The notes under the pieces were generated by a model that was not told where the DNA came from, did no database searches, and worked only from the letters and a program-made list of their open reading frames with translations. 64,000 bases of DNA, from NCBI GenBank assembly GCA_039555135.1, contig CP114179.1, forward strand, positions 2,418,001 through 2,482,000. Reading direction: 5' to 3'. The stretch comes from Phycisphaeraceae bacterium D3-23 (GTDB lineage: Bacteria; Planctomycetota; Phycisphaerae; Phycisphaerales; Phycisphaeraceae). Shown in pieces: positions 4,873 through 47,705 of this stretch. Made by a program: the position numbers and the translations under genes. Position 1 is the stretch's first letter. Each line of letters begins with the position of its first letter.

Positions 4873-6207
4873 ATGATTTCTAAGCTCCCGATGTTTGTCT
4901 TGGTTCTGGCGATGGCGTTCGTGTGCAGCAGCCCAGCCGAAGCGCAAGACGCTTCACCGCCCAACATCATCTGGATCGTCTCCGACGACTGCGGGTACAA
5001 CGACTTCTCCATGCACGGCTCGGACACACCGACGCCGCGCATCGACTCGATCGCCACCAACGGCGTGCGATTCACCGACGGCTATGTCTCGGGCTGTGTC
5101 TGCAGCCCGTCACGCGCCGGCCTGCTCACCGGGCGATACCAGCAGACGTTCGGCCACGAGTTCAATATCCCGCCCCGCTATAGCGAGACCAACGGGCTCC
5201 CGCTGACCGAGACGCTCATGCCCGCTGTGCTCCAGGACGCCGGGTACCGCACGATCGCGATGGGCAAGTGGCACCTGGGCTACGCACCCAAGTTCCACCC
5301 GATGGAACGCGGGTTCACCGACTACTACGGCTTCCTCCAGGGACAGCGCAGCTACTTCCCGATCGAAAGCCCCACTCGGCTCAACCGCATCCTGCGCGAC
5401 CGCGAGGTCGTGTTGCCCGAAGACTTCGAGTATATGACCGACCACCTCGGCGACGAGGCGGCACGGTACATCGAAGACAGCAAAGACGGCCCGTTCTTTA
5501 TCTACCTCGCGTTCAACGCGACGCACGGCCCGTTCCATACCACCGATGAAGACCTCGCCGCAGCCAACGGCGACAAGGTCGCCGCGATGACGATCGCCCT
5601 GGACCGCGCGGTGGGCAAGGTCCTCGACGCGCTTAGCGAACACGGCCTCACCGACAACACGATGGTCGTCTTCATCAACGACAACGGCGGCACGCCGCGG
5701 CACGACAACCGCCCGCTCAACGGCAACAAGGGCTCGTGCTGGGAGGGCGGGATGCGTGTGCCGTTCGTCATGCAGTGGCCGGCCGTCATGCCTGCGGGGC
5801 AGGTGAGCGATGCGCCAGTCATCGCGCTCGACCTCTTCCCCACCGCGATGGCTGCGGCGGGCATCGGCGAATCAACAGGCGAGGCGCTGCACGGCGTCGA
5901 CCTCGTGCCATTCCTCACCGGCGATGCCGAGGGCCGACCGCGTCAGACGCTGTACTGGAAGAACGGCGACGCCTGGGCCGTGCGCGATGGCGACCTCAAG
6001 CTGTGTGTGCCCAATCCCCGACAAGAAGGCGGCGACACCATGATGCTCTTCGACCTGTCGCAGGACATCGCGGAGCAGAACAACCTGGCCGACCAACGCC
6101 CGGACGATGTCGCCCGGCTACAGGCGCTCTACGAGGCGTGGCTTGCGGAGCACCAGCCCACGCCCTGGGGCCGGGGCAACCGCAGGCGTCAAAACGACCG
6201 TGGCTAG
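4873..6207 (+). CDS. Sulfatase with CSPSR active-site motif
   Basis: A secreted type I sulfatase of 444 aa. The ATG at 4873 follows AAGGA at a good distance and gives a signal peptide ending ...SSPAEAQ. NIIWIVSDDCGYND supplies metal ligands (Asp38/Asp39), and Cys77 in CSPSRAGLLTGRY is the expected formylglycine precursor. GKWHLGY, INDNGG and LNGNKGSCWEGGMRVPF are the usual later blocks. The C-terminus is basic and short of extra domains. The stop codon TAG overlaps the first base of a MITE-like element (6207-6397). With the two neighbouring sulfatases it suggests breakdown of a sulfated glycan; the exact substrate cannot be told from sequence alone. Confidence 0.95.
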   Translation: MISKLPMFVLVLAMAFVCSSPAEAQDASPPNIIWIVSDDCGYNDFSMHGSDTPTPRIDSIATNGVRFTDGYVSGCVCSPSRAGLLTGRYQQTFGHEFNIPPRYSETNGLPLTETLMPAVLQDAGYRTIAMGKWHLGYAPKFHPMERGFTDYYGFLQGQRSYFPIESPTRLNRILRDREVVLPEDFEYMTDHLGDEAARYIEDSKDGPFFIYLAFNATHGPFHTTDEDLAAANGDKVAAMTIALDRAVGKVLDALSEHGLTDNTMVVFINDNGGTPRHDNRPLNGNKGSCWEGGMRVPFVMQWPAVMPAGQVSDAPVIALDLFPTAMAAAGIGESTGEALHGVDLVPFLTGDAEGRPRQTLYWKNGDAWAVRDGDLKLCVPNPRQEGGDTMMLFDLSQDIAEQNNLADQRPDDVARLQALYEAWLAEHQPTPWGRGNRRRQNDRG

Positions 6208-6397
6208 AGCAACTTGCACGATTATTGTCCGCTTCCGGCTCCCCCTCCCTGCCGGGAGGGAGGGGGCTGGGGAGGGTCGGGCGCTGCCGCTTGCGTGTCA
6301 TAGGATGTCGGGTCAGTCTGCCGACCCCCACCCCAGCCCTCCCCCTAAGAGGGGGAGGGAGCTAAGACAAGGCGGACAACAATGTTGCAAGTTGCTC
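6207..6397. mobile_element. MITE-like inverted-repeat element, family D
   Basis: About 191 bp with 26-bp terminal inverted repeats (6207-6232 and 6372-6397) that agree at 23 of 26 positions; ends read GAGCAACTTGC and GCAAGTTGCTC. Inside are long imperfect arms rich in CCCTCCC / GGGAGGG. No ORF and no clear target duplication. The remainder of the gene-free stretch, 6398-6635, shows nothing recognisable. Confidence 0.65.
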
Positions 6398-6635
6398 CAG
6401 GGCAACTGGCGTCATTCCTGTGTGTACCCGCTCGCCTTGCAGTCGTGGGCCTATGGGTAGCGAGATGGAAAGGCAATCGCGCCGATCATTCGTAATGCGT
6501 AATGCATCAATGATTGATCGGCGGCATCCGGCCCGGCTCGGGTGGGGCAGGCGCAGGGATTCACACCTTGCGATGTTCCGGAGGGCCTGGCGTCGTGCCG
6601 ATCGCAGCAGTGCCCGGGTCGCGGGTTGGCTCGGC

Positions 6636-24658: not shown

Positions 24659-26110
24659 CTACCAAGGCATTGAGAATGTTTTGATGTTTGTCATGAATTT
24701 GATGGCTTCGATGACGCCTTCTTTGATGCCGAGTCCTGAGTCTTTGGTTCCGCCGAAGGGGGAGCATTCGATGCGGTAGCCGGGGACCTGGTTGATGTTG
24801 GTGGTGCCCGAGTCGATCTCTTTGACGCAGCGCAGGGCGGCGGCCATGTCGTTGGTGACGACGGCGCTGGACAGGCCGAAGTCGCTGGCGTTGGCGTAGG
24901 CGATCGCGTCGTCGAGGTCGTCGACGGGGATGACCGGGGCGAGGGGGCCGAAGCTCTCGGTCGCGACCATCTCGGTATCCCGCGGCACGTCGCGCAGGAC
25001 GGTGGGCTCGATCTGAGCGCCGTTGCGGTTGCCGCCGAGCAGGACGGTCGCGCCGTCGGATACTGCTTGTTTCACGCGGTTTTCGAGGACGGTGGCGGCG
25101 GCTTCGTCGATCACCGTGCCGACGACGGTGGTGTCGTCCGCCGGGTCGCCGCAGGTGTAGGTCTTGGCGAGGTCGACGAAGCGGGTGAGGAAGTCTTCGT
25201 AGATGTCTTTGTGGACGAGCGTTCGTTTCACGGCCGTGCAGCGTTGGCCCGAGTTTCTAAAGTTGCCTTCGCAGGCGAGTTTCACGGCCAGGTCCAGATC
25301 CGCGTCCGGCAGGATGATGAGCGGCGCGTTGCCGCCGAGCTCGAGGCAGAGTTTTTTGTAACCCGCGATCGAGGCGATGTGCTTGCCAACCCGCGTGCCG
25401 CCGGTGAAGGTCACGAGCGGGATGCGTTCGTCCTTGATCAGCGGCTCGACGACATCGTCGATCCCGCCGACGAAGACGCTGAGCATCCACTCGGGCAGGC
25501 CGGCCTCGTAGAACAACTCGCACAGGCGGATCGCGGAGAGCGGCGTCTTCTCGCTGGGCTTGAGCATCATGGGCACACCCGCCGCGACCGCAGGGGCGAT
25601 CTTGTGCGCCACCTGGTTGAGCGGGTGGTTGAACGGCGTGATCGCGAACGCGACCGGCAGCGGCTTCCTGAATGTAAAGATCTTCCGGGCCTTGCCCTGG
25701 GGCGAGATGTCGCAGCTATAGATCTCGCCGTCGTCTTTCAAGGCCTCCATCGCGGCGAACTGGAGCACGTCCTTGGCCCGGCCCGCCTCGTAGCGCGTCT
25801 CCTTCATGCACAGCCCGGTCTCGCTGCGGATCAGGTGCGCGAAGGCGTCCTCGTGCTTCTCGACCAGGCCCCGGACCTTCAAGAGGATCTCGTGGCGTTC
25901 GTAGCGGGTCAGCGGGGCCTCGGTTCGCTGTTTTTCCAGCGTCTCTTCAAGGCAAGCGAAGGCCTGCCGCCGCGAGACCCGCGAGAGCGTGCCCGCGACC
26001 GAGCCGTCCCAGGGGTAGTGGACCTCGAGCGGCGGGCCATCGGTGACGGCCTCGCCGCAGAGGTAGCTGGGCAGGGCGAGGGGCTGAGTCGCGGCGGGGG
26101 TGGGTGGCAT
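24659..26110 (-). CDS. phnY: Phosphonoacetaldehyde dehydrogenase (probable)
   Basis: An NAD(P)-dependent aldehyde dehydrogenase of 483 aa. It probably oxidises phosphonoacetaldehyde, made from 2-aminoethylphosphonate, to phosphonoacetate. Catalytic Cys291 lies in NSGQRCTAVKRTLV, general base Glu257 in LCLELGGNAP, and TFRKPLPVAFAITPFNHPLN is the cofactor region; C-terminal SPFGGTKDSGLGIKEGV is typical of the phosphonate-linked ALDH clade. Start ATG 26110 is used; the reading frame extends upstream into the neighbouring gene. It lies 46 bp after the phosphonoacetate hydrolase gene on the same strand, which is the strongest support for the substrate. No phnW transaminase is in the window. Confidence 0.85.
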   Translation of the reverse strand: MPPTPAATQPLALPSYLCGEAVTDGPPLEVHYPWDGSVAGTLSRVSRRQAFACLEETLEKQRTEAPLTRYERHEILLKVRGLVEKHEDAFAHLIRSETGLCMKETRYEAGRAKDVLQFAAMEALKDDGEIYSCDISPQGKARKIFTFRKPLPVAFAITPFNHPLNQVAHKIAPAVAAGVPMMLKPSEKTPLSAIRLCELFYEAGLPEWMLSVFVGGIDDVVEPLIKDERIPLVTFTGGTRVGKHIASIAGYKKLCLELGGNAPLIILPDADLDLAVKLACEGNFRNSGQRCTAVKRTLVHKDIYEDFLTRFVDLAKTYTCGDPADDTTVVGTVIDEAAATVLENRVKQAVSDGATVLLGGNRNGAQIEPTVLRDVPRDTEMVATESFGPLAPVIPVDDLDDAIAYANASDFGLSSAVVTNDMAAALRCVKEIDSGTTNINQVPGYRIECSPFGGTKDSGLGIKEGVIEAIKFMTNIKTFSMPW

Positions 26111-26156
26111 CTTGCTTCTCCATGACGCGGGAGTTATTCGTCCGTTCTGAGCTTGT

Positions 26157-27419
26157 CTATGAGTTCGCTGAATTGCACGCGAAGTCAAAAACATCAAAGT
26201 TCCGGGGGTCGCCCTGGGCCTTGCGCAGGTAGGCGGGCGACAGGGGCCTGGACACGAGCAGCGGGACCATTTCTTCGTAGCGTCCGCCGTGGCTGCGCAG
26301 CGTCTTCTTGAGCGCGGAGATGTCGTGGTACTCGGGCCGTCGGCCGATCACGACGTCGCGGGCGCTGAAGACGTACAGGTCGCCGATCCGGTCTGCCGCG
26401 AGCTGGACCTTCTTCACGGCGATGGCCTTATCGACGACCTCGGTAATCCCCGGGCGTTCGAGGACCCATTGCTGGACACGCCTCAGACCCCCTGGTTCCG
26501 CGAGGATCTTCTCGGGCAGGTGGACCGTCACCGCCGAGCCCAGCGCGCCGTGGTGGACGACGTACGGGTCGGTGATCGGGCAGATGACCTTGACCCCTTC
26601 GCCGAACTCCGCTTCGAGCAGGTCTTCGAGGTAGATCACCTGCGGGGCCCCGTCGCCGTCGCACTTGGCGTTCATGCCGTGGTCGGCCGTGGCCGCGACG
26701 ACGGCCCCCAGCCCGAGCATCCTGCCGACCTGCCCGTCCAGCGCCGCGTAGAACGCCAGCGACTCGGGCTCCTCCGGGGCGTAGGCGTGCTGCATATAGT
26801 CCGTCAGCGAGAGGTAGAGGAAGTCGGCGTGGCCTTCTTCGATCAATCGCACACCGGCCTTGAGGGTGTAGACACTCGCGTCGCCCGAGTAGATGTCGGG
26901 CCTGGGGCCGACGAGTGCCTCGATGTCGATGCCGCAGCGTTGCTTCGCCTCGTCCGCTTTTTCTGCGGAAAAGTGCAGGCCATCGGGCCGCATCCCCTTC
27001 GCGTAGAGCTCACGGAGCTTGTCCTTGGCGGTCACAAACGCGACCTTCCGCCCCGCCTGCTCCGCCGCCGCGAGGATCGTGTCGTTGCGCAAAAACTTTG
27101 AATCGTTCATCATGACCTCTTCGCCCGTCTCGGGGTCGAGGAAGAAGTTGCCGCAGATGCCGGTCGCGCTGGGCGGTGTGCCCGTGACGATCGCGCCGTT
27201 GTTGACATTCGTAAACGTCGGCAGACACGCCCGCGCCATCCCGCGATAACCCACCGCCGCAAGCTTGGCGATGTGGGGGGCCTTGCCCCGCGCGATCGAG
27301 ACACTCAGGTACTCGTCCGCACAGCCATCAATACAGATGACAACCACCGGGCACGCCGGAGGAGAGTAGCTCCGGCCATTCACAGAAAACGATCGCGTGC
27401 TTGGGGTGGGCATGGGCAT
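26157..27419 (-). CDS. phnA: Phosphonoacetate hydrolase
   Basis: Cleaves the C-P bond of phosphonoacetate to acetate and phosphate; alkaline-phosphatase superfamily with two metal ions. From ATG 27419 (420 aa) the motifs fall at Asp31 (VICIDGCADEY), Thr68 (CLPTFTNVNN, the expected nucleophile), Asp207/His211 (LTDYMQHAYAPEE) and Asp246/His247 (ATADHGMN), all in the order known for PhnA. A second ATG at 27413 is possible. No signal peptide, so cytosolic. Together with the aldehyde dehydrogenase downstream it makes a phnA-phnY operon giving phosphate and acetate. Its upstream region carries a GGATA-N3-TATCC palindrome shared with the phosphonate-associated dehydrogenase at 32556. Confidence 0.92.
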   Translation of the reverse strand: MPMPTPSTRSFSVNGRSYSPPACPVVVICIDGCADEYLSVSIARGKAPHIAKLAAVGYRGMARACLPTFTNVNNGAIVTGTPPSATGICGNFFLDPETGEEVMMNDSKFLRNDTILAAAEQAGRKVAFVTAKDKLRELYAKGMRPDGLHFSAEKADEAKQRCGIDIEALVGPRPDIYSGDASVYTLKAGVRLIEEGHADFLYLSLTDYMQHAYAPEEPESLAFYAALDGQVGRMLGLGAVVAATADHGMNAKCDGDGAPQVIYLEDLLEAEFGEGVKVICPITDPYVVHHGALGSAVTVHLPEKILAEPGGLRRVQQWVLERPGITEVVDKAIAVKKVQLAADRIGDLYVFSARDVVIGRRPEYHDISALKKTLRSHGGRYEEMVPLLVSRPLSPAYLRKAQGDPRNFDVFDFACNSANS

Positions 27420-27521
27420 GTTGTGGGGTCGGGTGCTGGGGGTGTCGTCCGGGCGTATCGGGGCCGGGCGTTGGCCCGCCGGCGGCAGATCACAATAATA
27501 TTCTTGACTGCATCCAGAACA

Positions 27522-27534
27522 GGATACAATATCC
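27522..27534. promoter_or_regulatory. GGATA-N3-TATCC palindrome upstream of phnA
   Basis: Perfect 5-bp arms around CAA, preceded by GAACA. It is 103 bp before the phnA start, in an AT-rich patch (27490-27535) with possible -10 sequences on both strands. The same palindrome, preceded by AAACA, occurs 60 bp before the HpnZ-like gene. Candidate operator for a phosphonate regulator. Confidence 0.5.
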
Positions 27535-27567
27535 GTACTCGACAAGGAAGGGGTGCCCCGCCGCATA

Positions 27568-27698
27568 GTGGTTCACATCGAGCTAGGTGGGGCGGGCATC
27601 TTGCCCGCCATCACGGCGCAGCCGTGAAACACGTGTGTACTCAGGCCTACGGCCTGATGGCGGGCTGGAAGCCCGCCCCACCTGTCAGAGTGAACCAC
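27568..27698. repeat. Inverted-repeat element, family E
   Basis: 131 bp bounded by GTGGTTCAC (27568-27576) and GTGAACCAC (27690-27698), with strong inner arms AGGTGGGGCGGGC / GCCCGCCCCACCT and smaller hairpins inside. It occupies the spacer between the divergent phnA and metallophosphoesterase genes. No ORF. Confidence 0.7.
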
Positions 27699-27742
27699 GA
27701 CCCCCCGCCGCCCGGTGACTTTAGCAGCAGCGAGCAAGAAGA

Positions 27743-29905
27743 ATGCCTAGCCCTAGCCCTAGCCGAATCGCCCGTGTGTCTGAATCCTTTATCCGGCTCG
27801 GCCTATGGGCCGTGATGGCCAGCCCGTTGCCGGCGCTGGCGTGCGACGGGTGTGGCTGCTGCGGGCCCGGTGCGGCCGGCGGAGACGCGGCGGGGCACGG
27901 GCACTCCCACGGCCCCGGGGCGTCGATCCTCCATGCCTTCTCGACTCCTGGAATGCCGGTCACGGCGGCGGGCCGGTCGGGCTCGGCCCCACCGCTCCGG
28001 TTCGTGATGGTGGGGGATACACAGGGCGGGGCCGTCGTCCCGCAGATCGTCGCCGACATCGCATGGGTCAATCCCGACTACGTCTTGTTCCCCGGCGACC
28101 TGGTCTCGCCCGGGTCGGCCACGACGTTCAACGACTGGGACAATCTCACCGCGCAGTTCGGCGACAACCGCTTCATGGTCCCGGGCAACCACGACCTGCC
28201 GGGCCGGCCCGCGACCAACGGCGACTGGCAGGCGGTGTTCAACTGGCTCCCCGACAGCCAGGTGGTCCCCAACATCATGACCGCCGACCCCCACGACACG
28301 GTCAGCGGCGTGGACCAGATGGACTACTACGTCGATTTGGCACCCAACGTCCGGCTGATCTCCGTGACCTCCGACCGTGACCTGCTGCCGGGCGAGAGCC
28401 CGACCTACACCGGCTACGAGATCGTGGGCGGTGAGCCCCAGGCGCTCGAGTGGTTCCAGAGCGTCATGGCATTGGAATCGACCCAACAGATGGACCACGT
28501 CTTTGTGATGACCCACCACCCGGTCACGACCATGATGAGCCAGGTCAACTCGTCGATTGATGGCCTGACCGAGGGTGTCGGGACTGAGTGGTGGCAGTCG
28601 ATCGCCGGGACCAGCGACGCGTTCGACGGCGCGACCGCCGCCGCGCTCCTGGCCGGCCACAACCACAGCTACCTCCCCAACCACCCCGACCCGCACTCCC
28701 CCACCGCCGAGATCATCGCGGGGACCGGCGGCGGGTCGCTGGCGTACGGCGGTGTCCCCCACCGCAAGGTCCACGGCTTCGTCGAGATCGTCATCGAGGG
28801 TGGGCTCATCTCCTCGACGTTCTACGGCGACAGCAACGGGGAGGTCGGCGGTTGGTCGTTTACCGAGGTGCTCGACACCTTCACGATCTCCGAGAACGGC
28901 GCGATCCCGCGCGGCGAGCTGGCGCGGTACCGCTTTGAGGCCAACGGCCCGGGGGTCGACACCTCCCTCTCGCCGCTGTCCAAAGGGATCGACCTGAACC
29001 TGCGCGACGGGGTCCAGCACATCTTCGACCACGACCTGGGTAGCAACGTGGTCCAACTGGATGGCACGGCTTTTATGGACTCCAAGAGCTTGGCGGACCA
29101 CAACTTCCAGGTGCTCGGCGACCTGCGGTTGGACCTGTGGGTCAGGGCCGAGGGGGCGCTTGGCAGCGACGAGGTGGACAACACCCTGGTCGCGTTTGGC
29201 GACGCCGACGGGTCGCGGGCGTTCCCTTGGCAGGACACGATCAACGACGAGATCGCCAACTACGCCTACATCCTGTCGTATACAGAAGGCGGCCACCTGC
29301 GCATGGCCTGGGAGTACCACGCGAGCACCGATGTGGACGCTCGCCCGACCCTCGTCGAGCTGGTCTCGACCCAGGCCGTCGCCGACCCCAACACGTGGCA
29401 CAACATCGAGGTGCTGCGCGACGCCGAGACGATGTCGCTGCGCTTCCTGGTGGACGGCATGCCGCTGGGCGAGGACCTTTCGTTCGAGCACCTGCCCACC
29501 GGTGCGGGGACGGGCTCGCTGTACATCGGCGCGCTGCCGGACATTACCGAAGGTGAAGAAGGCGGCATCGCGACGTTCCGCGGCCGACTGGACGACCTGA
29601 TCATCTCCAGCGAGCTGGTCACCCTGTTCTCCCTGGGCGATGCCAACCACGACGGGTTTGTCGGAGTCCAGGACCTGGACATCCTGCTCGCCAACTGGGG
29701 CGCTCGCGTCAACCCCGGCAGTCACTACCTGGGCGACCTGGACGGCGATGGCGAGGTGGGGGCCGGCGACCTCGCGTTGGTGCAGCTCCACTGGGGCGAA
29801 GGGACGCCGACCGACGCGGTGCCCGAGCCCGGGACCCTTGGCCTCTTCGCCGCGTCCCTCCTGCTCGGCAAAGCACGACGCCGACCGACGCCAACGGACG
29901 ATTGA
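27743..29905 (+). CDS. Surface metallophosphoesterase with LamG-like, dockerin-like and PEP-CTERM parts
   Basis: A 720-aa secreted calcineurin-like phosphoesterase. After a signal segment (about 1-33) comes a Cys/His-rich stretch (Cys34, 37, 39, 40; His52, 54, 56). The phosphoesterase domain (about 78-370) shows FVMVGDTQGG, LFPGDLVSPG, VPGNHDLPG, MTHHPV and LAGHNHSY, the five metal-binding motifs. A LamG-like sandwich (about 390-620) follows, then two dockerin-like repeats (GDANHDGFVGVQDLDILLANWG region and GDLDGDGEVGAGDLAL) and VPEPGTLGLFAASLLLGKARRR. It probably releases phosphate from extracellular esters at the cell surface. It lies next to phosphonate genes and 78 bp before a second phosphoesterase with the domains in a different order. 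Confidence 0.88.
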   Translation: MPSPSPSRIARVSESFIRLGLWAVMASPLPALACDGCGCCGPGAAGGDAAGHGHSHGPGASILHAFSTPGMPVTAAGRSGSAPPLRFVMVGDTQGGAVVPQIVADIAWVNPDYVLFPGDLVSPGSATTFNDWDNLTAQFGDNRFMVPGNHDLPGRPATNGDWQAVFNWLPDSQVVPNIMTADPHDTVSGVDQMDYYVDLAPNVRLISVTSDRDLLPGESPTYTGYEIVGGEPQALEWFQSVMALESTQQMDHVFVMTHHPVTTMMSQVNSSIDGLTEGVGTEWWQSIAGTSDAFDGATAAALLAGHNHSYLPNHPDPHSPTAEIIAGTGGGSLAYGGVPHRKVHGFVEIVIEGGLISSTFYGDSNGEVGGWSFTEVLDTFTISENGAIPRGELARYRFEANGPGVDTSLSPLSKGIDLNLRDGVQHIFDHDLGSNVVQLDGTAFMDSKSLADHNFQVLGDLRLDLWVRAEGALGSDEVDNTLVAFGDADGSRAFPWQDTINDEIANYAYILSYTEGGHLRMAWEYHASTDVDARPTLVELVSTQAVADPNTWHNIEVLRDAETMSLRFLVDGMPLGEDLSFEHLPTGAGTGSLYIGALPDITEGEEGGIATFRGRLDDLIISSELVTLFSLGDANHDGFVGVQDLDILLANWGARVNPGSHYLGDLDGDGEVGAGDLALVQLHWGEGTPTDAVPEPGTLGLFAASLLLGKARRRPTPTDD

Positions 29906-29983
29906 ACCCAGCCGGTCAACACCGACTCGTGCACACGGACCGACTTTTGATTTTGAAACAACCCCCGGACCTGGAGTACTTCG

Positions 29984-32125
29984 ATGCCGACCACCCGACA
30001 CCTACTTTCCGCCGCCTCGTTGGCTGCACTGAGTCTGGCCACCGAGCCCTGCCTCGCCCAGGCCTCGCTCACCGCGTGGTGGGCGTTCGACGGCGACTAC
30101 ACCAGCCAAGTGAACAACGCCGTGTTCAGCGGCACGGCGGTCGGGGCCGGCACATCGATCACCAACACCGCAGGCCAGTTCGTCAACGGCACCGGCGGGC
30201 TGGCGATCGACGACTCGCTGGCCACCGCGAATTTCGTCTCGGTCGGCACCAGCCCGATCATTGATACCAACGCCTCAATCACGGTTTCCGGCTGGTATCA
30301 GCTCAACGACCTCGCCGGCGACGGGATGGACACCCGCAACTTCGTTTGGGAGACCGCGCCGAGCAACTACACGCTGTCGTACGCCCTCCGAAGCGACACC
30401 GATGACGGGCAGAAACGCGGGCAGTGGTACACGCAGAGCCCTGCCTTTTCTGGCAACGCCGACACCGGCCCGGTCATCAACCAGGGCACCTGGTACCACG
30501 CGGCGGTGGTCATCAATCAGAGCAACAGCTCGCTCCAGTACTACCACAACGGCGTGCTGACCGACGACGTCTCATTGCCCGGCGGGTACGCGGTCCCCAG
30601 TGGTATCGACGGGTTCAACATCGGCAACCACCGCGCGGGCGACGGCAGCCGAAACTGGGACGGCTACATCGACGACGTGGCCGTGTTCCAGGGCGCGTTG
30701 ACCGGCTCGGATGTCGCGTCGCTCTACAACGGGTCGGACACCCCGCTGTCCCTCGTGAACTGGGCCATCACCGCCCCGCCCCTGCCGGACCCGGACCCGC
30801 TGGCCTTCGTGCCCGGGTCCTGGACGATGGTCGTGATCCCGGACACGCAGAACTACAGCACCAACCACCCCGAGATCTTCAGCGAAGTGACGCAGTGGAT
30901 CGCCGACAACGACGACCGCAACATCGCGCTGACGCTGCATGTCGGCGACATCACCAACCGCAACAACACCACCGAGTGGGACCGGGCCTACGACGCGATC
31001 TCTCGACTCGACGGCGAGGTGCCCTACATCCTTGCGACCGGCAACCACGACTACGGCCCCGGGGGCGGGGCGGGCGACCGATCCACCCTGTTCAACGACT
31101 ACTTCGACGAAGGCATCTACTACGAGACCAGCGGCGCGGGCAGCTTGGTCTACGACAACATCGAGATCGCCGAGCAGTTTGTGGACACCGCGCGTTTCGG
31201 CGCGGGGCCTGACAACGAGACGCTCGAGAACGTCGCCTACGACTTCACCGCGCCCGACGGCCGGGAGATGCTGATCTTCTCGCTGGAGTGGGGTGTGCGG
31301 CAGGAGGTGGTCGACTGGGCCAACGCGGTCGCCGCTCGGGAAGAATACGAAGGACACACAGCGATCCTCCTCACCCATGCTTACATGTACAGCGACGACG
31401 AGCGCTACGACTGGACCAACCAGAACACCGCGAATGATGAGCCGGGCAATACCCACTCGGGCTCGTCGCAGGGCGCGAACCCGCACGTCTACAACACGGC
31501 CGATACGGATGACGGCAACCCCGCCAACGACACCAACGACGGCGAAGAGCTCTGGCGTGAACTCGTCAGCCAGCACGGCAATTTCGAGATGACGTTCAAC
31601 GGCCACGTGATCATCGGCGGGCAGCTCGGCTACCGCCAGGACGCGGGGTCCATCGGCCAGCAGGTCCACCAGATGCTTTACAACGCGCAGGCGGATGCGA
31701 ACGGCGGAGATGGCTGGATACGTCTGCTCGAATTCCTGCCCGACGGGGAGACGGTACAAGTCAAGACCTATTCGCCCTACCGCGACCGGCTCGGGCTCGA
31801 CCCGTGGCGGACCGACGCGGACAACCAGTTCACCATCTCGCTGACAGGCATCGACTCGCTCGTCGGCGACCTCGACGGGGACGGCTTCGTCGGCGTCGGG
31901 GACCTGGACGTCCTTCTGGCGAACTGGGGCGAGTCGACGGCGTTCTTCGATGTGACACTTGGCGATGTGAGCGGCGACGGTGTCGTCGGTCAGGCCGACC
32001 TGGACCTGGTGCTCTTGAACTGGGGCCACGGCACGCCGCCAAGCGGCAACGTCCCCGAGCCCGGCACCCTGGCGTCGTTGGCCTTCCTCTTGGCCGGCCT
32101 GCACCGCCGGCGTCGTTGCCGGTAG
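29984..32125 (+). CDS. LamG-metallophosphoesterase with dockerin-like and PEP-CTERM parts
   Basis: A 713-aa secreted protein. Signal peptide MPTTRHLLSAASLAALSLA...CLAQ; LamG-like domain about 26-250 (LTAWWAFDGDY at its start, WDGYIDDVAVFQGALTG near its end); calcineurin-like phosphoesterase about 275-610 with VVIPDTQNYS, LHVGDITNRN, LATGNHDYG, LLTHAYMY and NGHVIIGG. Two dockerin-like repeats follow (GDLDGDGFVGVGDLDVLLANWG-type, GDVSGDGVVGQADLDLVLLNWG-type), then a VPEPGTLASLAFLLAGLHRRRR tail. Compared with the preceding gene the LamG and phosphoesterase domains are swapped. Probably a surface phosphatase or nucleotidase acting on external organophosphates; likely cotranscribed with the gene before it. 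Confidence 0.9.
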   Translation: MPTTRHLLSAASLAALSLATEPCLAQASLTAWWAFDGDYTSQVNNAVFSGTAVGAGTSITNTAGQFVNGTGGLAIDDSLATANFVSVGTSPIIDTNASITVSGWYQLNDLAGDGMDTRNFVWETAPSNYTLSYALRSDTDDGQKRGQWYTQSPAFSGNADTGPVINQGTWYHAAVVINQSNSSLQYYHNGVLTDDVSLPGGYAVPSGIDGFNIGNHRAGDGSRNWDGYIDDVAVFQGALTGSDVASLYNGSDTPLSLVNWAITAPPLPDPDPLAFVPGSWTMVVIPDTQNYSTNHPEIFSEVTQWIADNDDRNIALTLHVGDITNRNNTTEWDRAYDAISRLDGEVPYILATGNHDYGPGGGAGDRSTLFNDYFDEGIYYETSGAGSLVYDNIEIAEQFVDTARFGAGPDNETLENVAYDFTAPDGREMLIFSLEWGVRQEVVDWANAVAAREEYEGHTAILLTHAYMYSDDERYDWTNQNTANDEPGNTHSGSSQGANPHVYNTADTDDGNPANDTNDGEELWRELVSQHGNFEMTFNGHVIIGGQLGYRQDAGSIGQQVHQMLYNAQADANGGDGWIRLLEFLPDGETVQVKTYSPYRDRLGLDPWRTDADNQFTISLTGIDSLVGDLDGDGFVGVGDLDVLLANWGESTAFFDVTLGDVSGDGVVGQADLDLVLLNWGHGTPPSGNVPEPGTLASLAFLLAGLHRRRRCR

Positions 32126-32482
32126 AGGCCGATTCCGTGACGTCGATCGTGGCCCGTGGCGCTTGTCATATCAACCGCGTGCGTGGCCCCCGCGGCTGTC
32201 AGGGCCCAGCACCGATATCGGTGCCGCAGGCGCTAAGGCCCTGGCCAGCGGATGATCTGGTCAGCTTCTTGAGCCGATCCTGCAGGCGCCCGGATCAAAT
32301 GTACGTGCCATGCACTGGGGCCAAGGCCTCGTCAGGTTGTAGTGGGCCCACGTCCCGAATTGTATGAAATGCATGAGTTTTGCTAAAAAACAGTGTAGTT
32401 GGCCGCCTATTGCGTTCTACGGGGGTGCCCGGCACTGATGGGGGCTAAAAGCCAGAAATCCCCTTGCACTCAAGCCGAAACA

Positions 32483-32495
32483 GGATATCATATCC
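32483..32495 (+). promoter_or_regulatory. GGATA-N3-TATCC palindrome and promoter before the HpnZ-like gene
   Basis: Perfect arms around TCA. For rightward transcription TTGCAC (32464-32469) and TATCAT (32486-32491) are 16 bp apart, so the -10 lies inside the palindrome. It repeats the site at 27522-27534. The rest of the gene-free stretch 32126-32555 shows no ORF or RNA I can support. Confidence 0.5.
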
Positions 32496-32555
32496 AATGG
32501 ATAAACAATCCACCCGCGCATCTATCTACCTTCCGATTATCCAGGCGGCCTCATC

Positions 32556-33800
32556 TTGGCGAAACCTCAGCCCCACCACGCTTCCGAAGACACGCACGCC
32601 AAGGCGTCGGTCTTTGTGCAGACGGGCCAGCCGATCGAGACACGATCGTTCCCGCTGCCGGGCTCGCTAGCGCCCGGCGCTGCGCTATGCAAGGTCGAGC
32701 TGAGCACGATCTGCGGGTCCGACCTGCACACCATTGAGGGTCGGCGGCAAGAGCCCGCCCCGCTGATCCTGGGCCACGAGATCGTCGGCCGTGTCGCCGC
32801 GCTGGGGCGCGGCCTGGAGGAGGACTGGCTGGGCAACCCGCTGAAGGTCGGCGACCGGATCACCTGGTCCATCGTCGTGGCGTGCGGCGACTGCTTCTAC
32901 TGCCACAAACAGCTCCCGCAAAAATGTGAAGACCTGATCAAGTACGGCCACTGCTGCTGCGAGGGAGAGCACCCCCTGACCGGGGGGTTCAGCGAGTACA
33001 TCTACCTCCACCCACGGACGTGCATCATCAAGCTGCCCGACTCGGTCAGCAGCCAGGCGGCGGCCCCGGCCAACTGTGTGTTGGCGACGGCGTGCAACGC
33101 GCTGGACTCGGTCGGCTGCGTCCGGGGCGAGTCGGTCCTGATCCAGGGGGCCGGGCTGCTGGGCGTGTACCTCTCGGCCTTGTGCAAGGAGGCCGGCGCC
33201 GAGCGCATCTTCGTGACGGATATGCAGCCGGCCCGTTTGGAAATGGCGACGCGTTTTGGCGCGGATGTCGGGATCGACCTGTCGCATATCTCGCCCGAGG
33301 GGGCCGAGGCGTTGGTCAAGGCCGAGACTTTCGGCCGGGGCGTGGATGTGGTGTTCGAGGCCTGCGGCGTGAGCACGGTGGTCCCGCACGGGCTGGACCT
33401 CCTGTGCAAGGGCGGGCGCTACCTCGTCGCCGGGCTCGTCTCGCCCAACAGCCCGATCAACATCCCCGGCGAGGTGCTGACGCGCAACTGCCTGTCGCTG
33501 ATCGGCATCCACAACTACCGCCCCGAACACCTGGCGTCTGCGATCCGCTTCCTCGAAGAGGCGGGCGACCGTTACCCGCTCGACGAGATCGTCGGCGCGA
33601 CGTACGCGCTGTCGCGGTTTGAGGACGCGGTCGAGGACGCCAAGTCGCAAAAGCACCTGCGTGTCGCGGTCCGCCCGGGTCCGGGGGCGGCACGCGGAGG
33701 CGCTGCGGCGGAAAACCGACTGCGGGTCGTGATCCCGGACGGTGTGGCCCCGGTCTCGCTCCCGCCACGCAAAACCGCATCCTCAGAACCCAATACGTGA
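32556..33800 (+). CDS. Phosphonate-catabolism-associated zinc alcohol dehydrogenase (HpnZ-like)
   Basis: A 414-aa zinc-dependent medium-chain dehydrogenase. Cys53 (TICGSDLHTIEGRR), His74 and Glu75 (ILGHEIVG) are the catalytic zinc ligands. CGDCFYC with a further Cys downstream is the structural zinc lobe, and LIQGAGLLGVYLSALCKEAGA is the nucleotide-binding loop. The sequence pattern matches the dehydrogenase clade repeatedly found next to phosphonate genes (TIGR03366, recalled not searched); its exact substrate in that clade is unproven. The start is TTG 32556, the first start in frame, as no ATG precedes the conserved core. The C-terminal 40 residues are extra and Pro/Arg-rich. It shares an upstream palindrome with phnA. 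Confidence 0.85.
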   Translation: MAKPQPHHASEDTHAKASVFVQTGQPIETRSFPLPGSLAPGAALCKVELSTICGSDLHTIEGRRQEPAPLILGHEIVGRVAALGRGLEEDWLGNPLKVGDRITWSIVVACGDCFYCHKQLPQKCEDLIKYGHCCCEGEHPLTGGFSEYIYLHPRTCIIKLPDSVSSQAAAPANCVLATACNALDSVGCVRGESVLIQGAGLLGVYLSALCKEAGAERIFVTDMQPARLEMATRFGADVGIDLSHISPEGAEALVKAETFGRGVDVVFEACGVSTVVPHGLDLLCKGGRYLVAGLVSPNSPINIPGEVLTRNCLSLIGIHNYRPEHLASAIRFLEEAGDRYPLDEIVGATYALSRFEDAVEDAKSQKHLRVAVRPGPGAARGGAAAENRLRVVIPDGVAPVSLPPRKTASSEPNT

Positions 33801-39356: not shown

Positions 39357-41456
39357 ATGACAAAGGGTATCAATCGGCGTACGTTCGTGACCGGTGCCGC
39401 CGGTGCGGTCTCGGCCGCCATCGCAGGCGGTACTCATGCACAGACCCCCCAAAGCAAATCAGCGACGCAGGACGGCGGCTTGCCCGGTCGCGGGCTGCGC
39501 GCCGCGGTACTGGAGTACCGCGACCGCTGGACGGATGAGTCCACGGGGCTCGGCCCGTTGCTGGAGCGGGCCGGGGTCGAGGTCGTCGAGCTGGACCTTA
39601 GCCGGCCCGCCGACCGGCAGCGTGGGGGGGTGGACCTGATCGTGTTCGGGTCGTTTGTGAACAACGGCGAGGACTACGCCCGCTACATCGAGCGCCACGG
39701 CGACGCGCTGCGCACCTTTGCGGCGCGCGGCGGGGTCGTGCTGGAGATGACCCAGTCCGACCAGTTCGGCAACACGGTCACGTATCTCCCGCGGGGCGTC
39801 GAGGCCGTGCGCGGCGACCGGGACCTGAATGTCGTCTTCCCGATCGCGGCCGACCACCCGATCGTCGCCGGCTGGTTTGCCGAGGGCGAGGACCGGCTGG
39901 ATCACGGGGCCCTGGACCGCAACAACGTGAACTGGGAGAGCGTGGACCGCTGGGCGGGGATGCGCGTGCTGCTCGCCTCGGAAGAAGGTGGCGGGTCGCC
40001 CGCGCTGCTCGAAGCGGCGCACGGCGACGGCCGGCTGCTCGTCTGCGGGCTCTGGCTGGATAAGTGCTACAACGCGGACGGCGAACCGACGCAGTCGGCC
40101 CGCGCGATCCAGCGCAGCGAAGCGTTCTTCGCTGCCATCGCGGGCTACGTCGCGCTCGTCAAGCAGGGCGAAGCGCCCGACGTTGAGCCCACGCCGATGC
40201 CCACGCAGCCCCCCACCGGGCCCATGGTCGGCCACGTCGATACCGAGCGTGCGCGCGTCTGGTTCCGCCCCGGCCAGGACCACCACCGCCAGCAACGCTG
40301 GGTCTGCACCCTCGAAACAGATGACGCCCGGCCCGCACGCTTCGACGCACGCATCGACCCCGACCACGACTTCACCGGCATCGTCGAGATCACCGGGCTC
40401 CAGGCCACGACCGACTACCACTTCGCCATCCGCCCGCGCGGCGACGAAGACTACAACGCACTGCAAGGCACCTTCACCACCCCCCCGGCGAACGACACGC
40501 CGACGAAGATCACGCTGGGCATGGGCTCGTGTGCACCCTCCGACCCCAGCCACATCTGGACCCGTGTCGTCGAAGAGGGCTGTACCGGCTTCATCTTCCT
40601 CGGCGACACGCCCTACGTCGACACCTCCGACCTCGGCCAGGCCCGCGCCAAGCACCGCCGCTTCCTCGCACAGCCCGAGATCAGCGAGATGGTCCGGCAG
40701 ATGCCTTGCTGGGGCACGTGGGACGACCACGACTTCGGCCGAAACGACGGCCACGGCGACTTCCCCGGCAAACACGCCTGCCGCGCCGCCTTCACCGAGT
40801 ACCGCGCCAACGCGACCTTCGGCCACGACGAACGCGGCAACCTCCAGGCCGAACGCTTCGGCGAGGGACGAGGCATCTACACCTCCTTCCGCTACGGCCC
40901 GCTGGAGATGTTCCTGATCGACCCGCGATGGTTCAGCCGAACCGAGCCCAGCTGGGCCAACCCCGACGAGCACACCTGTATGGGCGAGACGCAGTGGGAA
41001 TGGTTCCGTGAGGCGCTCAAAGCCAGCGACGCGACCTTCAAGTGCATCGCCACCGGGATGATTTGGGACGACAAGGAAAACTCCGAGAAGGACGACTGGG
41101 GGACCTACCACTACGAACGCGACGCGATCTTCGACCTGATCAAAGACGAAGCCATCCCCGGCTGCTTCCTGCTCGGCGGCGACATCCACGTCTCCCGCGC
41201 ACTCAACTACGGGCCCCGCGTCGGCTATGACCTCTGGCAGTTCATCGTCAGCCCGATGCACGGCCGCACGATCGCCTCGCTGAACGTCCCGCACCCCAAC
41301 CTCGTGCACGACGCGGTCGAGCCCTATGTCTTTTTGAAGATGGAGATCGACACCACGGCTTCGCCGGCGACACTCGACGCGATGTGGATCAACCGCGACG
41401 GCCGACGCATCTTCGCGGTGAACACGACGGCGGATGAGCTCAGCCCGGGTGGGTAG
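39357..41456 (+). CDS. PhoD-type alkaline phosphatase with extra N-terminal domain
   Basis: A 699-aa Tat-exported phosphatase/phosphodiesterase. ATG 39357 follows AAGGA; the signal is INRRTFVTGAAGAVSAA. Residues about 35-265 form an alpha/beta domain resembling class I amidotransferase/ThuA-like folds (LRAAVLEYRDRW, VDLIVFGSFVNNGEDY, GDGRLLVCGLWLD). Then comes a PhoD-type Ig-like part (about 290-380) and the catalytic region with MGSCAPSDPSH, FIFLGDTPYVD, WGTWDDHDFGRND, FLIDPRWFSR and LLGGDIHVSRA, whose Asp and His residues bind the metals. It probably releases phosphate outside the cell, beside an organophosphate-type transporter. The N-terminal domain is not part of standard PhoD. Confidence 0.9.
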   Translation: MTKGINRRTFVTGAAGAVSAAIAGGTHAQTPQSKSATQDGGLPGRGLRAAVLEYRDRWTDESTGLGPLLERAGVEVVELDLSRPADRQRGGVDLIVFGSFVNNGEDYARYIERHGDALRTFAARGGVVLEMTQSDQFGNTVTYLPRGVEAVRGDRDLNVVFPIAADHPIVAGWFAEGEDRLDHGALDRNNVNWESVDRWAGMRVLLASEEGGGSPALLEAAHGDGRLLVCGLWLDKCYNADGEPTQSARAIQRSEAFFAAIAGYVALVKQGEAPDVEPTPMPTQPPTGPMVGHVDTERARVWFRPGQDHHRQQRWVCTLETDDARPARFDARIDPDHDFTGIVEITGLQATTDYHFAIRPRGDEDYNALQGTFTTPPANDTPTKITLGMGSCAPSDPSHIWTRVVEEGCTGFIFLGDTPYVDTSDLGQARAKHRRFLAQPEISEMVRQMPCWGTWDDHDFGRNDGHGDFPGKHACRAAFTEYRANATFGHDERGNLQAERFGEGRGIYTSFRYGPLEMFLIDPRWFSRTEPSWANPDEHTCMGETQWEWFREALKASDATFKCIATGMIWDDKENSEKDDWGTYHYERDAIFDLIKDEAIPGCFLLGGDIHVSRALNYGPRVGYDLWQFIVSPMHGRTIASLNVPHPNLVHDAVEPYVFLKMEIDTTASPATLDAMWINRDGRRIFAVNTTADELSPGG

Positions 41457-42994: not shown

Positions 42995-43069
<75 letters not shown>

Positions 43070-45075: not shown

Positions 45076-47490
45076 TTAGTTCGTCCCGACCTGCGACTGG
45101 CGCATGAACGCTTCGAGCGTCACGGTCTGTGGCGGGTCGTCGTCGCCTTCGATCACGCCGATCGCCCGGTCGTACTGCTCGGTGAGTTGTTCATTGTCCA
45201 ACGTTTCCGCGCGGGCCTCGCGGAGCTGGGGCAGGCAGTCGGCCGCGGCGCTGCCGTAGGTCGCGAGCTGGGTGAGTGCTTTCAGGGCGAAGCGTGGGTG
45301 GCCCCAGCCGCCGAGCGTCGCGATGTCGGCCAGCGGCGCGATGGCCTCGTGGATACGTTGCCCGCTGGCGATCTCCAAACACGACAGCCGGGCGTCCATC
45401 ATGAACATGATGTTGCTGGGCGTGTCGTGCGAGCCCGCCGCGACGATCGCGGGCATGAGTGCTGCACGCTCTTGCGCGGGCAGTTGGCCCAGCACGCGGA
45501 CGATGCGCTGGATCACCCAGGGGTCTTCGTGCTCCAGCATCTGCCGCATCGCGCCAAGCACGAGCTCGCGGTCGTCGATGTTCTGAAGCAGGCGCTGGAC
45601 CTTGCCGGGGTTGTCGGAGAGCAGCGTGAAGACGATCTGCTGGCTGAGCATCGGGTCGGCCCCGCGCTCGTAGCTGGCGAGGTAGGGCAGCAAGACCTCG
45701 GCCGCGCCGCGCGGGTTGAGCGCGACCAGCGTACGCACCGCCTGGTGGCGAAGCTCCTCCGAGCCGTCACGCACGAGGATCGCCGCGGCGTCAAACACCA
45801 GCTCGGCCTGCGGCGTCTCGCCGGGCGAACGCGACGCCTCGACCCGCGCCATCGCGGCGAGCTGGTCTTGCTCGTGCTCGGACTGCACCATGTGCGCGAT
45901 GTCTTCGCCGAGCGCGACATCGCGCGAGCGAAGCTCCTTCGCCGCCTCGAACCGCACGACGGGCGACCAGCTCGATAGCGCCTCGATCAGCGCCGCGTCG
46001 GTCATCGTCGGGTAGTCGTTGCGGCCGGCGGCCAGTGCCGTTTCCACTTCTTCCGGGGTCATCGGGTCGAGCGTCATCGGCCCCTTGCCGGTGATGCGCA
46101 GTTCGCCGCGCGCGATGGCGAGGTGCAGGAGGTAGGCGCCCGGGCAGTCCCAGCCGTGGTAGTTTTCGCGTCGGGCCTCGGGGTTGCCCTGGTAGGGGTA
46201 GCCGTGTTGCCAGTCGCGGGCGAGGTCGTAGTACCAGCCGAACTCGCCGAGGTAGCCGCCGGTGGCGAGCGGCCCGCCGCGCGCGACGCCGGGCAGGGAC
46301 CAGAGGATGTTGAAGAAGTTGCCGGTGTGGCCCTGCTCGCGGTCGGCGTTGAACGCGGCGACGGCGGTGCGGCGGTAGTAGGCGGTGGCGTCTTCATCGC
46401 CGAGCAGGTCGAAGAACACGGCGGCGTTGGAGTTCTTGCCGTTGTCGTCGTGGCCATACTGCCGGTTGGGCTCGTGGTCGCCGTAGGGGATCGCGCCCAG
46501 CCCGACGTATCGGCGGAAGAACGCGGCGCTGCGATCGATGGCTTCGTCGACGACGGGCACATCGACGCCGCACTCCCGGGCGAGCACCATGGATGTCGCC
46601 AGCGGGATGCTCACACAATTGATCGCGCCGTACCCGCCGAGCCGACCCAGCTCGGGCCAGACAAAACGGTGGCCCCAGTTGCCCATGACACTCTGGCCCT
46701 GGGCGATCTCGACGGCCTGCTTGCGCACGGCGTCATACACCGCCGGGTCCCGCGTTGCGAGGTAGTACTCGGCCAAGAGCAGCGTCGAGTACGCATACTC
46801 CCACGAGTGCAGCCCGCGGTGCTGCGACATGTCGCGCTCGGCCACCCTGTGCGCGTACTCACGCACCATCGGCAGGTACGCTTCTTCCCCTGTCGCGAGC
46901 AGCGCGAGCGCGTTGATGTGCGTCGGCAGGTCGATCCGCCCCAGCCCCTTTTCCGACAGCGCCCGCGCCCCGGCCTCAAGCAAACGGTCGGACTTCTCGC
47001 AGTCGTACGGCGCCGTCGCGCTGAAGGCGGGCATCGCTTCGAGCTGGATCGTCACGATTTCGGCTTGACCCGCGCGCCAGCGCAGTAGCTGCAACCGACC
47101 GCCCTGCTCCGACTCACTCAACTGAATCGCACGGGCCAGCGCCAGCCGCGCGTCGCTCTCGAACGGCTCGCTACCGATCCCGAGGATGACATCCCCCGCC
47201 TGCAACACGCCCTCCGCCGGCGACCCCTCGGCCACCTCGGCGATGTACGCCTGCCGCGCATAAAACGTCGCGCGCTTACGGTCCACAAAGAAATACCCCC
47301 GCGCCCCCGTGGGCCCGAGCGTCCAGTCGTGCGGACCATCGGCCGGCGGCGTGTCGCCCGCGGTGTAGTCGGGGACGTCGGGCTGGGCCGCCGCCATCGG
47401 CGCGGGGCAAACCGTCAGCAAGGCGGCGACTGTCACCGCCATCACGATTGCGACCCGGTGATCGAGTCGATGAGGAAGTCGAAGGGGCAT
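45076..47490 (-). CDS. Large secreted PDZ / DUF6288-like / HEAT-repeat protein
   Basis: An 804-aa exported protein. ATG 47490 follows GGAGATTC and starts a signal peptide (VAIVMAVTVAALLTVCPAPMAAAQ). Residues about 50-150 include a PDZ fold (AYIAEVAEGSPAEGVLQAGDVILGI, split: VAEGSPAEGVLQAGDVILGI). Residues about 155-480 resemble the DUF6288 region (WEYAYSTLLLAEYYLATRD, GHRFVWPELGRLGGYGAINC, PYGDHEPNRQYGHDDNGKNS), an alpha-barrel. Residues about 510-780 carry HEAT-like repeats (VVRFEAAKELRSRD, LRHQAVRTLVALNPRGAAEV). The function is unknown; the PDZ and barrel suggest binding of peptides or glycans in the periplasm. It is divergent from typA. Confidence 0.8.
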   Translation of the reverse strand: MPLRLPHRLDHRVAIVMAVTVAALLTVCPAPMAAAQPDVPDYTAGDTPPADGPHDWTLGPTGARGYFFVDRKRATFYARQAYIAEVAEGSPAEGVLQAGDVILGIGSEPFESDARLALARAIQLSESEQGGRLQLLRWRAGQAEIVTIQLEAMPAFSATAPYDCEKSDRLLEAGARALSEKGLGRIDLPTHINALALLATGEEAYLPMVREYAHRVAERDMSQHRGLHSWEYAYSTLLLAEYYLATRDPAVYDAVRKQAVEIAQGQSVMGNWGHRFVWPELGRLGGYGAINCVSIPLATSMVLARECGVDVPVVDEAIDRSAAFFRRYVGLGAIPYGDHEPNRQYGHDDNGKNSNAAVFFDLLGDEDATAYYRRTAVAAFNADREQGHTGNFFNILWSLPGVARGGPLATGGYLGEFGWYYDLARDWQHGYPYQGNPEARRENYHGWDCPGAYLLHLAIARGELRITGKGPMTLDPMTPEEVETALAAGRNDYPTMTDAALIEALSSWSPVVRFEAAKELRSRDVALGEDIAHMVQSEHEQDQLAAMARVEASRSPGETPQAELVFDAAAILVRDGSEELRHQAVRTLVALNPRGAAEVLLPYLASYERGADPMLSQQIVFTLLSDNPGKVQRLLQNIDDRELVLGAMRQMLEHEDPWVIQRIVRVLGQLPAQERAALMPAIVAAGSHDTPSNIMFMMDARLSCLEIASGQRIHEAIAPLADIATLGGWGHPRFALKALTQLATYGSAAADCLPQLREARAETLDNEQLTEQYDRAIGVIEGDDDPPQTVTLEAFMRQSQVGTN

Positions 47491-47705
47491 CTGAATCTCC
47501 TGAGATGGGCCGGGACGCAGTCCCCGGTTTCCCGAGGGACTCCGGGCCGGGGGCTCGATTACTCCGGCATGCGAGTTTAGCGTGAGGCCGATTTCTACTT
47601 GGGAGGCTGGACTCTCGTACAATACCCCGCTTGGCCTCTCGGGCTCGTCCGGGCTCGGCCACATCCCCGCGCAACGCCTCCCACCCCACCGCCGCAGCCC
47701 ACCCC

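Follow-up and report, generated by a model that had tools for sequence, protein, structure and literature searches.

Phosphonate genes, PEP-CTERM phosphoesterases and a repeated palindrome in a Phycisphaeraceae genome: a putative phosphorus-scavenging island whose palindromes are most likely promoter parts

The genome of Phycisphaeraceae bacterium D3-23, a single contig of 4.62 Mb (CP114179.1; assembly GCA_039555135.1), carries a locus at which genes of phosphonate breakdown stand on both sides of two large genes for metallophosphoesterases, with a copy of one short palindrome on each side. We analyzed this locus within a window of 64,000 nucleotides (positions 2,418,001-2,482,000 of the forward strand; G+C content 66%), and coordinates below are those of the window unless another locus is named. 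On the minus strand lie phnY (24659-26110, from an ATG at 26110), coding for a phosphonoacetaldehyde dehydrogenase, and the adjoining phnA (26157-27413, from an ATG at 27413, with an ATG at 27419 also possible), coding for a phosphonoacetate hydrolase. PhnA exceeds the curated cut-off of TIGR02335 (487.4 against 407.55 bits), and PhnY, with 579 bits against TIGR03250, lies 57 below the cut-off of 635.65, this being by far its best family. The plus strand carries a metallophosphoesterase with a LamG domain, a dockerin-like stretch and a PEP-CTERM segment (27743-29905; PF00149, PF13385, PF07589), whose dockerin region weakly matches chain 2y3n_B (E 0.0007), and a second protein of LamG, metallophosphoesterase and PEP-CTERM type (29984-32125; PF13385, Laminin_G_3; PF00149, Metallophos; PF07589). 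Beyond these, also on the plus strand, is a gene for an HpnZ-like zinc alcohol dehydrogenase (hpnZ, 32556-33800; PF08240, ADH_N; PF00107, ADH_zinc_N), which matches TIGR03366 over its full length with 322.8 bits, 5 under the cut-off of 328.1. These profile matches bear out the arrangement proposed in an earlier note, which had placed two PEP-CTERM metallophosphoesterases between phnA-phnY and an HpnZ-like dehydrogenase.

The same note had drawn attention to the palindrome GGATA-N3-TATCC, preceded by RAACA, in the upstream regions of both groups of phosphonate genes. Both sites are indeed present, each with its RAACA, and they are the sole exact matches in the window. Palindrome 1, GGATACAATATCC, occupies 27522-27534 within a 17-mer at 27518-27534 and contains the -10-like hexamer TACAAT; palindrome 2, GGATATCATATCC, occupies 32483-32495 within a 17-mer at 32479-32495, contains TATCAT, and is directly followed, 16 bp on, by an imperfect tandem copy with one mismatch, GGATAAACAATCC (32499-32511). 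The position of site 1 upstream of phnA depends on the start chosen: the listed reading frame from 27566 includes the site, whereas with the ATG at 27413 the site lies 109-121 bp upstream. It is probably intergenic, because the start that phnA has in common with a second copy of the gene elsewhere in the genome is the ATG at 27413.

Exact GGATA-N3-TATCC occurs twice in the window as against a mean of 0.01 in 100 shuffles, a mean that ignores the freedom to choose any palindrome. A wider test took in all palindromes with 5-bp arms, at least three A/T per arm and spacers of 0-10 for which two copies stand no more than 5 kb apart. One such pair is present in the window, and at least one pair arose in 44 of 300 whole-window shuffles and in 36 of 300 block shuffles, with a mean of 0.2 pairs in a separate run of 20 shuffles. 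With an added 4-bp matching flank, a criterion picked after the sites were seen, comparable pairs arose in 2 of 300 and 1 of 300 shuffles, respectively. When the A/T condition is dropped, 76 pairs are counted in the window, whereas 20 shuffles average 48.1 and reach 73 at most. The palindrome pair with its flanks is unusual.

A regulon operator of this form, as the earlier note envisaged, would have represented a novel type of control over the use of phosphonates, and a literature search found no account combining phosphonate, operator, palindrome, PhnA and regulator. The proposal was not borne out past the local pair. With the reversed pattern as the control, the genome holds three exact sites against none; the third is outside the window and stops 15 bases short of what may be the ATG of a sulfatase gene (PF00884, 169.6 bits). 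Allowing up to two mismatches gives 414 places per genome strand, as against 357 for the control, and across the 51 genomes of the family, own genome included, there are 30 sites against 23 (27 against 23 without it). By the criterion for refutation that the earlier note had set, the frequency in the family is near background, though the genome itself has its three exact sites against none. The 17-mer with the RAACA flank, AACAGGATA-N3-TATCC, has two exact genome copies, none with one mismatch and two with two, a total of four against three in the control.

The sites expected near other phn genes of the same genome or of relatives were likewise absent at up to one mismatch, apart from a single one-mismatch palindrome before the hpnZ gene of a same-genus genome, G262. 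The genome's other phn cluster, here called L094, has no palindrome at up to one mismatch in 18 kb around it, and its two sites with two mismatches both lie inside genes (the regulator described below and a TPR/sulfotransferase gene). Upstream of hpnZ (250 bases) at the best 80 loci among the matches listed, drawn from named genome records, there was no site at up to one mismatch (control one), and at up to two mismatches there were 12 against 12; many of these genes may sit within operons, where an operator is not expected. For 13 phnA genes, the preceding 300 bases held no site even with two mismatches allowed. Support for the palindrome as a regulon signal ends with the local pair, to which the same-genus hpnZ can perhaps be added. 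No DNA-binding regulator domain was found among the 33 window proteins scanned, which are not every reading frame of the window. Another candidate, the PhoB (PHO) box with the consensus CTGTCAT-N4-CTGTCAT, would suit the phosphorus theme of the island genes; it was rejected, being at the level of chance (three window matches at three mismatches against 2.29 expected) with no match upstream of island genes.

We regard it as most likely that the palindromes are parts of two ordinary sigma-70-type promoters of the form GGA-TANNNT-ATCC, serving the metallophosphoesterase gene and hpnZ, and not an operator of a phosphonate regulon. The palindrome is read as a -10 element because GGATA-N3-TATCC always includes the form TANNNT, and because a TTG hexamer stands 15 or 16 bases upstream at both sites. 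On consensus alone, TTGACT-15-TACAAT (27504-27530, plus strand) points at the metallophosphoesterase gene and away from phnA, and TTGCAC-16-TATCAT (32464-32491, plus strand) points at hpnZ. In the window as a whole, a TTG at a spacing of 15-18 was found at 18 of 173 TANNNT places, and on the minus strand of both palindromes there is none at 15-18 bases. The same-genus hpnZ is preceded by TTGTGC-16-TATATT, the TATATT falling within the one-mismatch palindrome and ending seven bases short of the likely ATG, a form that would suit a promoter and, just as well, an operator conserved at hpnZ. The usual sigma-70 spacing is 17, and the island sites are shorter.

Several observations weigh against the promoter reading. 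A generic promoter scan, which demands spacers of 16-18 and 9 of 12 matches, reported neither of the two sites; together with a terminator scan it returned one promoter-like match per region, neither of them at the palindromes, and no terminators. The third genome site lacks a TTG at 15-18 on either strand. Two of the three exact genome sites, where the control has none, lie within 5 kb of each other, and 9 of 10 palindrome bases are kept at the same-genus hpnZ. Both the rarity of the flanked pair in shuffles (3 of 600) and the imperfect tandem copy 16 bp past site 2 are more in keeping with an operator than with a bare -10 box. As to the island itself, neither HpnZ nor PhnY reaches its curated cut-off. 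With these points counted, the whole explanation, a phosphorus-scavenging island in which the palindromes are promoter parts, seems to us moderately probable.

The same evidence may be read in other ways. The palindromes could be a true local operator, bound over the -10 boxes by a dimeric repressor or activator that recognizes the 17-mer and co-regulates the metallophosphoesterase gene (perhaps with the divergent phnA-phnY) and hpnZ. The confinement of the exact 17-mer to two places 5 kb apart in 4.62 Mb, both upstream of island genes, speaks for such an element, as do the shuffle count with flanks, the tandem copy and the same-genus site; the near-control frequency in the family, the lack of close sites at L094 and in the 80 and 13 related upstream regions, and the result of the domain scan of window proteins make it unlikely. 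Chance likeness offers another account, under which two promoter stretches, AT-rich within G+C-rich surroundings, happen to have a palindrome in common. In 80 of 600 shuffles at least one pair of AT-rich palindromes did arise within 5 kb, and the genome count at up to two mismatches and the site count in the 50 other family genomes both stay close to the control; the matching flanks, which cut the shuffle count to three, and the exact sites in the genome itself (three against none) speak against it, and we consider this account improbable too.

A further proposal, which is compatible with the other readings, is that the phn genes of this genome are controlled through a different site by an AraC/XylR-type regulator encoded at L094, with the window copy outside that control. 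L094 has a DUF5690 transporter-like gene, phnA, phnY and phnW, divergent from a regulator gene whose product joins Peripla_BP_3 and AraC HTH domains. Regulators of this make-up stand beside DUF5690-phnA-phnY-phnW at L094 (5453-6622) and at L254 (12787-13938); in the family member G276, the one found beside these genes has both domains and is 44% identical. The AraC-type protein is a candidate phn regulator, and the motifs associated with it are leads only. One of these, TTGCGCA-N14-TTGCGCA, is exact in the divergent intergenic region of L094; the other, GCGCWAWTCGTCRA, has one exact copy in L094 and two in L254, and no match in the window at up to one mismatch. Both were derived from the very sequences in which they were counted, and the former, at up to one mismatch, has 13 matches on both strands of the genome (two of them the L094 site) against seven in the control. 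We treat control by this regulator as a tentative possibility, less likely than not.

The two phn clusters bear on the history of the island as well. The window phnA-phnY (24659-27413) and the second copy (L094:8403-11169) are 97.65% identical over 2768 bp, and their differences are clustered. About 1.2 kb of phnA holds a single one, the bins of 25900-26199, which cover the end of phnA, the spacer and the start of phnY, hold 64, and the remaining 1.25 kb or so of phnY holds three. At the protein level, the N-terminal tract of PhnY agrees at 32 of 46 positions between the copies and the rest at 424 of 425. Gene conversion between two older phnA-phnY copies would leave such a pattern; a plain recent duplication is less likely, as a diverged tract of about 200-300 bp parts two near-identical ones. 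Which copy is orthologous to the same-genus phnA-phnY-hpnZ is not decided by the N-terminal tract of PhnY (26 versus 23 of 46). Site 1 might have been a piece of a duplicated phn upstream region, an idea rejected on the finding that identity with the second copy stops at 27416. L094 also carries a metallophosphoesterase 38% identical to the 27743 protein, so that a gene of this type adjoins phnA-phnY at both phn loci of the genome; among 201 genomes of the order, full-length relatives were found in this one only, once at each phn locus (at most five candidates were scored per genome, so that misses are possible). In addition, L094 has phosphodiesterase-like and PEP-CTERM reading frames, which overlap in different frames (L094:3460-5396) and are possibly one gene with a frameshift.

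The functional link between phosphonate genes on the two sides of the phosphoesterases is better supported by gene order than by the palindrome. In the same-genus genome G262 (locus L253; 70% complete genome), phnA (70% identity, cut by the contig end), phnY (73%) and hpnZ (54%) are consecutive on one strand, and the HpnZ homologue there scores 295.6 bits against TIGR03366. Among the best 80 hpnZ loci, PhnA or PhnY at 300 bits or more occurs nearby in 15, of which five have PhnW at 150 bits or more and ten have none detected; both thresholds are our own choice, the ten loci are 6.0-17.1 kb long, and the count leaves out three loci with weaker PhnA (142-164 bits) and two where PhnW occurs in the absence of both PhnA and PhnY. 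The ten loci without PhnW gave no match to PbfA (the query itself scores 703.5 bits against the PbfA model), and a DAO-type FAD oxidase matched weakly in two of them (47-50 bits). Elsewhere, HpnZ stands at locus L097 beside phosphonate-type ABC transporter genes, with PhnE above its cut-off, PhnC just below (264.3 against 266.1) and a binding protein above the TIGR01098 cut-off and below that of PhnD; at L258, hpnZ is beside relatives of all three PhnCDE-type transporter genes. Of the single regulon once proposed to link phosphate release with phosphonate breakdown, the functional grouping thus probably holds, as judged from these neighbourhoods, and the palindrome as its operator is not supported.

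The distribution of the phosphonate genes is patchy. Within the family, phnA was found at E<=1e-30 in four of 51 genomes, own included, and an hpnZ relative at E<=1e-40 in five of 51; among 248 genomes of the class, PhnA is above its cut-off in two, one of them our own, and HpnZ in four, our own not among these. Proteins of the DUF5690 family recur in phnA or hpnZ loci of several groups (L094:7009-8325, L254:4749-6080, and loci L095, L201, L204, L205, L208, L212 and L217), and a role of the DUF5690 protein as a phosphonate transporter is possible.

From the families present, all of them known, the island is predicted to be a phosphorus-scavenging one. Surface-anchored PEP-CTERM phosphoesterases would probably act outside the inner membrane, cutting esters of phosphate or phosphonate; HpnZ would probably oxidize a phosphonate alcohol to phosphonoacetaldehyde, PhnY would oxidize phosphonoacetaldehyde to phosphonoacetate, and PhnA would cleave the latter to acetate and phosphate. 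In this scheme the gene identities come from profiles and the roles of PhnY and PhnA from their families; location, substrates (that of HpnZ included) and flow we infer. A close known system is the PhnWYA pathway of 2-aminoethylphosphonate breakdown, as described in PMC12366243: the island has phnY and phnA, and L094 the phnA-phnY-phnW set, but in the island an HpnZ-like dehydrogenase stands in place of PhnW, for which the whole window gave nothing at E<=1e-6.

The main interest of the locus lies in the question of what HpnZ does. Its family, TIGR03366, is described in NCBIfam as a putative phosphonate catabolism associated alcohol dehydrogenase, a name taken only from neighbours; hpnZ accompanies phnY and phnA, in many cases with no aminotransferase detected. 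Since ten of the 15 loci that link hpnZ to PhnA or PhnY have no detected phnW, HpnZ may yield phosphonoacetaldehyde from an alcohol, perhaps 2-hydroxyethylphosphonate (2-HEP), whose oxidation would give it directly according to PMC12366243. The same source records that a HEP dehydrogenase role had been weighed for PbfF, which proved to be an NAD-dependent racemase of S-HAEP breakdown. PbfF resembles HpnZ as a dehydrogenase-type gene clustered with phnY-phnA, and differs in belonging, as stated there, to pfam02826, whereas HpnZ has ADH_N and ADH_zinc_N. A search of solved structures returned for HpnZ general alcohol, threonine and polyol dehydrogenases only (E<=1e-20), and in a literature search TIGR03366 was not mentioned, HpnZ appeared in unrelated contexts only and 'hydroxyethylphosphonate dehydrogenase' was not found. 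The fuller proposal, that HpnZ is a 2-HEP dehydrogenase and that HpnZ-PhnY-PhnA would form a PhnW-free route from 2-HEP to acetate and phosphate, fed by surface phosphoesterases freeing phosphonate from polysaccharide esters, is speculative, and we consider it doubtful. Marine organic matter contains 2-HEP and methylphosphonate as polysaccharide esters, as reported in PMC9381506, and if HpnZ did make phosphonoacetaldehyde from 2-HEP, it would provide a hydrolytic exit for phosphonate in such marine organic phosphorus.

Past hpnZ lie genes for two LamG/PEP-CTERM proteins, a pseudopilin-like protein, a SASA esterase, an MFS transporter and a PhoD-like phosphatase (39357-41456, plus strand; PF09423, 86.4 bits), the last of which is perhaps part of the phosphorus-scavenging theme. 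A riboswitch or other regulatory RNA was rejected, as Rfam at gathering scores gives a single tRNA only (42995-43068; tRNA-Pro by ARAGORN). Between site 1 and the metallophosphoesterase gene there is an interspersed self-complementary repeat (27568-27703), which we label MITE/REP-like; it is self-inverted and has 67 genome matches, many of them both strands of one place, the best other copies being 94-96% identical. It falls within the likely leader of the 27743 metallophosphoesterase gene. Near another copy of this repeat, a 205-bp stretch of the window (6198-6400) is 97.6% identical to L103:10557-10761, and farther along the window a DUF6288 protein is encoded at 45076-47664 (416 bits).

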